Origin: an uncultured Phycisphaerae bacterium
Lineage (GTDB): Bacteria > Planctomycetota > Phycisphaerae > UBA1845 > PWPN01
Assembly (NCBI GenBank): GCA_938005315.1
Contig: CALLOB010000023.1
Location: 1-61,392 of the forward strand
DNA: 61,392 nt
Direction of reading: 5' to 3'
Position numbers and translations under genes: made by a program. The notes under the pieces were generated by a model. The model worked only from the letters and a program-made list of their open reading frames with translations. It had not been told where the DNA came from and did not search any database. Every line of letters begins with the position of its first letter. Positions within the stretch are counted from its first letter, which is position 1. Below are positions 2,089-15,396 of the stretch, piece by piece.

Positions 2089-2518
2089 ATCGGGTCACCT
2101 CACTGAACGGGCGAATCGGATCACACGCCTGCGACGGCCGGCGGGCTTGCCGGACCGAACTTTGTGGGGCTGCGACCCCGCCGGGCCGACCGGGTCGCGA
2201 CCCCGCGGGACGCGGGCGGATGGTAACCCAATCGGGGCGGTGCGTCCACGCGGAATCGGGCGTCGCCCCCCCAACGCGGGTGCGTGACGGCTTGAGCGGG
2301 GCTGTTTACGACCCTCGGAGGGACGCGCTCCGTCGCGTCCCGGATTCGCCGTTCCGGAGGGACGCGCTCCGTCGCGTCCGCGGTCACGGGTTGTCTCGGA
2401 TCCGTTATTCGCGGCGTCCATCATTTGCGGTCCGTCCATCATTCCCGGCCCCGACGGAGCGGGGCCCTCCAGGTTTTCGCGGCCCCGACGGAGCGGGGCC
2501 CTCCAGGGGGATGCGCCG
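2089..2518. repeat. Intergenic region holding four REP-like palindromes
   Basis: No gene is supported here. Two copies on the plus strand (2317-2340 and 2356-2379) have foot GGAG, stem GGACGCG, loop CTCCGT and stem CGCGTCC. Two copies in opposite orientation (2447-2470 and 2481-2504) read stem GGCCCCG, loop ACGGAG, stem CGGGGCC, then CTCC. The loops are reverse complements, so all four belong to one family with two stem versions. The arrangement of inverted pairs resembles BIMEs. The bases 2170-2215 additionally hold an imperfect CGACCCCG repeat. Confidence 0.8.
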
Positions 2519-2824
2519 TCACCAACCCGCGTCGTCTGGAAAGGCCTTGGCGTACCGGGTGCTGTGCCGCGGCTCGGCCATCATGTCGGCCACGGTGTCG
2601 CGCCAGCGGGCGTAATGGGCGGTCTCCTTGTGCCGGGCGGGGGCGTCCTGATCGCGGTAGACCTCCACCAGCACGAACCGCGTGGGGTCGTCGGCCTGCT
2701 GCAGAACGTCGAACCGGGCAATGCCCGCCTCCTGGACGCTCTGGCGGGCGTTTTCGATGGAGGCCTGTCGAAAAGCTTCGACGCAGTCGGGCTTTACGCG
2801 CACGTGGACCATGACGATGAGCAT
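2519..2824 (-). CDS. Antibiotic biosynthesis monooxygenase (ABM) domain protein, YgiN/LsrG-like
   Basis: A 101-residue single-domain protein of the dimeric alpha/beta ABM fold. It begins [12 protein letters not shown], then a helix ([21 protein letters not shown]), a strand pair around [23 protein letters not shown], and the typical [14 protein letters not shown] segment, as in LsrG and YgiN. Members oxidise quinol-like substrates without cofactor or isomerise phospho-AI-2; the exact reaction is unknown here. The ATG at 2824 is chosen over longer frames because AGGAGA lies just upstream and the fold begins there. It is downstream-flanked by the REP-like repeats. Confidence 0.85.
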
Positions 2825-12035: not shown

Positions 12036-12152
12036 GGAGGGACGCGCAGCCGGGTCCTGGTTGGCAGCGTCTGGAGGGACGCGCCCCGTCGCGTCCCCGA
12101 TCGCACGCCGTTGCGCGTCCGTTTCGCCGGCCCCGACGGAGCGGGGCGCTAC
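12036..12152. repeat. Second REP-like cluster, three copies
   Basis: Downstream of carB lie a degenerate plus copy (12036-12057), a near-perfect plus copy (12073-12096; loop CCCCGT instead of CTCCGT) and one inverted copy (12129-12152; stem GCCCCG, loop ACGGAG, stem CGGGGC). The inverted copy has CTAC at its foot, which reads GTAG on the other strand, while the others carry GGAG. GTAG and GGAG are the two known REP foot tetranucleotides. Confidence 0.75.
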
Positions 12153-12162
12153 AAGGGGACGA

Positions 12163-15396
<3,234 letters not shown>

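Follow-up and report, generated by a model that had tools for sequence, protein, structure and literature searches.

A GGAG-footed REP family and its probable RAYT transposase in an uncultured Phycisphaerae bacterium

What lies behind the genes at the left end of this contig? The window, a stretch of 61,392 nt, is contig C23 of a draft genome of 3.76 Mb in 136 contigs (G000) and carries two extragenic clusters of short hairpins. In the first, two perfect type A repeats in tandem on the plus strand (2317..2340 and 2356..2379, 39-nt spacing) face two perfect type B repeats on the minus strand (2447..2470 and 2481..2504, 34-nt spacing), the last of them 15 nt from the 3' end of the minus-strand ORF 2519-2896. 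All four have a GGAG foot and a CTCCGT loop, with the stem GGACGCG/CGCGTCC in type A and GGCCCCG/CGGGGCC in inverted type B, exactly as the first-pass annotation had described them; the cluster also lies upstream of the next minus-strand ORF, 328-2088. The second cluster consists of a decayed type A repeat with its loop shortened to CAGC and one stem mismatch (12036..12057, plus strand), an imperfect type A repeat with the loop CCCCGT (12073..12096, plus strand) and a type B repeat with the foot mutated to GTAG and the outermost stem pair broken (12129..12152, minus strand), 11 nt beyond the 3' end of the CarB-like minus-strand ORF 12163-15396. These three copies are real but degraded, and the loop that had been called constant over all seven copies is constant in the first cluster only. 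The placement of both clusters in gaps at the 3' ends of minus-strand genes had been recognized correctly, as had the lack of a RAYT gene in the window, where none was found. The window copies are best read as two REP insertion sites behind gene 3' ends, for which no further function is needed.

Two features of the surrounding sequence deserve mention in their own right. In the first cluster, two 18-nt direct repeats at 2415-2450 that are 83% identical (CGTCCATCATT...) lie between the A and the B copies and overlap them in part. Translation of the repeats also yields spurious recurrent peptides (EGRAPSRP, WRDALRRVR, PTERGPP) at many loci, for example L021:3-266 and window positions 2220-2615; such REP-derived peptides would pollute ORF calls in REP-bearing genomes.

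Within the window alone a loose 13-mer test found 8 matches where 8.5 were expected, which is not significant, so that a genome-scale count was needed. Over the whole genome TCCGTCGCGTCC matched 144 times, against 5 for the reversed-pattern control, and the 24-nt pattern GGAGGGNCNCGCTYYGTCGNGNCC matched 231 times on many contigs, against 0; the latter leaves two stem pairs free, and 231 is the minimum number of intact copies. Hundreds of dispersed copies thus stand in place of the seven seen initially. Among 25 relatives of the same family or order, a looser foot-plus-loop pattern stayed at background level. The anatomy of the repeats was counted in about 204 kb around the clusters; some copies on later contigs were counted without examination of their sequence. 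Here 159 sites combine a GGAG or GTAG foot with a CTYYGT loop at the right distance, and 147 of them form at least six of the seven stem pairs and are regarded as near-intact. These short palindromes have a 7-bp stem, a 6-nt loop and a conserved 5' foot, which is GGAG in 144 of the 147 and GTAG in three; the GTAG-footed copies retain a CTCCGT or CTCTGT loop. The alternative foot proposed from the window is accordingly a single mutated copy there and a rarity in the copies examined. Stem A accounts for 75 and stem B for 54 of the near-intact copies, and the stem changes first read as compensatory are, within this genome, two discrete subfamilies and not a rich covariation. The published definition of a REP asks for a GT[AG]G foot (PMC6006769), which these copies lack but for the three GTAG exceptions; the repeats qualify as REPs in a broad sense without being canonical ones. 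The first-pass annotation had taken GGAG/GTAG feet as a known REP hallmark, and its REP/RAYT reading holds, but GGAG is unrecorded as such. In all copies, the foot is also complementary to the CTCC of the loop (to CTYY via G-T wobbles); pairing in cis looks sterically hard without a linker, and the foot hardly varies.

How the copies are arranged follows a strict rule. Taking as neighbors all copies whose starts are at most 150 nt apart, every one of the 83 inverted pairs in G000 joins an A stem to a B-class stem, whereas same-strand neighbors almost always share their stem class. Feet point outward in 52 of the inverted pairs and inward in 31, with a commonest spacer of 32 nt (11/52). Inverted pairs with recurrent spacing are what defines REPINs or BIMEs, and the BIME-like orientation noticed in the window is therefore right and stricter than stated, as the inverted partners always differ in stem. 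The rule is kept in a Desulfobacterales genome (28/28 inverted pairs) and in G309 (12/12), despite stems partly or wholly different from those of G000; in the former (G417), the commonest spacer is 25 nt (8/21). The idea that unlike stems serve to prevent mutual annealing of the paired hairpins found partial support only: in a DNA folding model, long-range pairing is weaker by about 13-15 kcal/mol in mixed-stem than in same-stem pairs, yet remains the dominant form.

A Pfam search for Y1 transposases returned three genes in G000. One of them encodes a Y1 HUH transposase of 157 aa (P0001; C3:158-628, minus strand); repeats, of both REP types, lie on either side of the gene, at C3 52-109 and from position 641 on. 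The protein passes the NCBIfam model REP_Tyr_transpos with 96.8 bits (cut-off 80) and carries the HUH histidines H68 and H70, the W-Q motif (WQ107-108), Tyr128 and Asn132. Its best match of solved structure by sequence is the E. coli TnpAREP (4er8, E 5.5e-8), which is also its best match by fold, with a modest structure model (pLDDT 62). The gene is single-copy, with the Y1 proteins of the order at most 36% identical to it, and forms a REPtron, a single-copy gene flanked by its own REPs. An IS200/IS605 insertion sequence, whose transposase gene would be expected in several near-identical copies, is argued against by the single gene copy and by the IS200 model, on which the protein fails with 28.6 against a cut-off of 55. 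RAYT subclass 2.5 (group 3) has the motifs DH[LF]H, WQ and YI[VI]ANP; DHVH and WQ were found here, and the Y motif, YVRLN or YVRQNP, is nearer to subclass 2.7. Residues tied to GTAG recognition in the E. coli protein include W94, Q95, E100, H101 and R104 (PMC6006769). In an alignment to 4er8, the corresponding stretch of the GGAG-associated family reads WQKSFWDTQLR, with H101 replaced by Thr (Arg in G309) and followed by Gln (Glu in G420), whereas RAYTs near GTAG hairpins, among the Y1 genes of the order and of Desulfobacterales, mostly have [DE]H and in two cases DR. The GGAG foot thus appears to go with DTQLR in place of [DE]H, a correlation over a small set of sequences.

Four relatives of this RAYT were found in named genomes, from at least three phyla other than the window's: one in a Desulfobacterales genome (60% identity), two in Latescibacterota (57%) and one in Ignavibacteriales (53%). 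As in G000, hairpins surround each gene; they combine a GGAG foot, a 7-bp stem and a CTCCGT-like loop, with stems that include GGCCACG, GGACCCG, GGTCACG and GGACGTG, and GGAGGGNCNCGCTYYGTCGNGNCC matches 312, 25, 17 and 2 times in these genomes, with controls at 0. Within the window's own phylum, the family, at a threshold of at least 170 bits, occurs in four of 392 genomes, namely G000, G309, G369 and G096; more than one copy of the REP is present in G000 (231), G309 (87) and G369 (14), which are exactly three of the four RAYT-bearing genomes and none besides. The G309 gene lies between GGGCACG and GGCCGCG hairpins, and that of G369 is accompanied by degenerate copies. REPs of the searched pattern were not found in G096. 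Its gene, the most divergent of the family, lies between 87-nt inverted repeats that are 84% complementary and contain GGAGGGCGAGGCTCC (L158:1256-1342 and 1951-2037); these GGAG-containing flanks resemble long terminal inverted repeats more than they do short REPs. A lone copy of GGAGGGACCCGCTCCGTCGGGTCC, of the Latescibacterota type, was seen in G194 (C70:45942-45965; L177:1501-1524), where a degenerate inverted partner seems to sit downstream and no RAYT of the GGAG family was detected.

In a sample of the phylum to which the Desulfobacterales genome belongs, the family exceeds 170 bits in two of 297 genomes, the other one being G514, whose inverted repeats have GGAG feet and altered loops. 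The RAYT of G417, the genome richest in REPs (312), has a Cys at the position of the catalytic Tyr (KWDCVRKNP; C123; L064:3989-4471), reflecting either a recent inactivation or a base error in the draft, and the Ignavibacteriales gene (G420, L067:3965-4465) is interrupted by an in-frame TAA, which together with the two matching REPs of that genome fits a decaying system. Because of these changes, the activity of both proteins is doubtful. G417 also has a second RAYT (C201; L166:1301-2400), flanked by GTAG-footed hairpins with GGAACGGC stems, which offers a natural internal control for guide specificity. Beside yet another RAYT (G015:C1:3086999-3087379; L053), a GTAG-footed REP has the loop CTCCGA, close to the CTCCGT of the GGAG family. 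The distribution over phyla suggests horizontal transfer of the GGAG-RAYT lineage; a tree that unites the four RAYTs of the window's phylum is not rejected (p-AU 0.29), so that topology is no proof of it.

It is across genomes that the covariation claimed from the window is borne out. Among 51 distinct hairpins from seven genomes, compared with shuffles and with slid structures, 93% of cells are paired, against 80% in shuffles, and 48 cells are double-changed, against 17.4 +/- 3.0. The covariation score of 0.355 compares with 0.113 for shuffles and at most 0.155 for slid structures. The signal resides at stem pairs 3 and 5 of 7, plus one change in pair 6; it is strong, and the truly covarying pairs are two of the seven. 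Foot and loop are near invariant across the genomes compared.

What, then, are these repeats? We consider it very likely that they are REP elements, arranged mostly as REPINs or BIMEs, that is, as inverted pairs of two different hairpins, and moved by the C3 RAYT. In the proposed mechanism, REP DNA folded as a single strand would be recognized by this Y1 HUH transposase, which would cleave it and copy it around the genome. Neither excisions nor insertions nor empty sites were seen. Foot and loop are constant, while the stem is free to change provided that pairing is kept; the RAYT therefore probably recognizes the YGGAG foot together with the CTCCGT loop and would require a perfect stem. A dependence on particular loop bases and on perfect pairing of the stem is reported for group-3 TnpAREPs (PMC8266576) and agrees with a loop held constant above a stem that drifts. 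A fixed cleavage dinucleotide was not apparent, there being no constant CT downstream of the REPs; directly before the foot, the share of copies with CT is 27% in G000, where the background is 5%, and only 5% in G417. More tentatively, and with the odds somewhat against it, the family may be a RAYT lineage, present in at least four phyla, whose guide switched from GTAG to GGAG together with its reader residues (DTQLR against mostly [DE]H), which preserves foot and loop but lets stems drift, and whose mobile unit is always two hairpins of unlike stem, a left/right asymmetry comparable to that of IS200/IS605 ends.

The switch of guide would be illusory if the canonical guide were merely read in a shifted register, as a GTGG or NTGG set off from the stem by the two bases AG, an arrangement known from some short group-3 REPs. 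For subclass 2.5, tetranucleotides separated from the stem by 1-2 nt are reported (PMC6006769), some G309 copies do read GTGG-AG-stem, and a T precedes GGAG in all counted copies of G417 (56) and G309 (16), as a pyrimidine does in most of G000. The would-be first G, however, is variable (in G417 T 57%, G 27%, A 11%, C 5%; C or T for the most part in G000), in contrast to GGAG, which hardly varies (144/147 in G000) and is retained in the more distant G514 despite its changed loop. We thus regard a shifted register as unlikely. Far less probable still is that the hairpins are not mobile DNA but RNA elements, such as terminators or mRNA-stabilizing hairpins, kept at gene 3' ends. Strong and G+C-rich, they do lie 11-15 nt beyond minus-strand stop codons at both clusters of the window, but they use both strands, follow fixed rules of stem type in their arrays, whether tandem or inverted, surround the RAYT gene, occur in two or more copies only in genomes having that RAYT among the 392 of the phylum, and match no Rfam family; a secondary RNA role they may have. 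That one of the other two Y1 transposases of G000 (about 230 aa; C2:24510-24905 or C120:12280-12675) is the mover of the repeats, with the C3 gene a mere neighbor, is barely credible, for although both resemble RAYTs they score 77.6 and 59.5, below the model cut-off of 80, GGAG hairpins were not found within 400 bp of either, and order-level relatives rich in Y1 genes are without such repeats.

The C3 RAYT and its REPs form a REPIN/RAYT system of a known kind. With the group 3 (subclass 2.5) systems of Pseudomonas, Stenotrophomonas and Marinomonas (PMC8266576, PMC3116915, PMC6006769) they share a short RAYT of about 150 aa, in which the motifs DH-x-H and WQ are present and Asp takes the place of E100, and short REPs with a perfect stem, an apparently protein-read loop, inverted doublets and hundreds of copies; they differ in the foot (GGAG, not GT[AG]G), the six-base loop CTCCGT, the Y motif (YVRxN(P), not YI[VI]ANP), DTQLR at the guide-reading site and the phyla concerned. 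In the E. coli REPtron with its Y/Z-REP BIMEs (4er8; group 2), too, one tnpA-REP gene lies among its own REPs, two REP types form inverted pairs across the strands, and the protein has the same fold, being the best structural match; the E. coli stems are bulged and the foot is GTAG, in contrast to the perfect 7-bp stem, GGAG foot and conserved loop found here. The GTAG-tagged families of Di Nocera and colleagues (PMC3733652) are also short tagged hairpins with HH/TT dimers and complementary stem changes between subfamilies, in PVC bacteria. Their tag variants are GYAG, GYRG, GTRG, GTMG and GTGG, with GGAG absent from the main text, the sequences in figures being unsearchable. Inverted Y/Z pairs (PMC8266576), stem subfamilies (PMC3733652) and a patchy RAYT distribution with suspected transfer (PMC6006769) were thus already known. 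Three things seem to be new, namely the combination of a GGAG foot and a conserved loop of six bases, the changed guide-reading motif (DTQLR for [DE]H) and the patchy spread over several phyla. GGAG was not found in the main texts of the REP literature searched, which comprised open papers with unsearchable figures and so gives no proof of novelty. This family would have escaped a published automated search, whose criteria were a GT[AG]G foot and, in short hairpins, loops of 2-5 nt (PMC6006769).

Our analysis widens the definition of REPs beyond GT[AG]G. The apparently paired change of guide and guide reader provides a natural case for testing how TnpAREPs select their cleavage site, and the wholly heterotypic pairing, kept despite differing stems, offers a simple, testable hint as to how recognition of the mobile unit works. 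With close relatives in unrelated phyla and order-level relatives without the gene, the family also makes a case against a strictly vertical inheritance of RAYTs.
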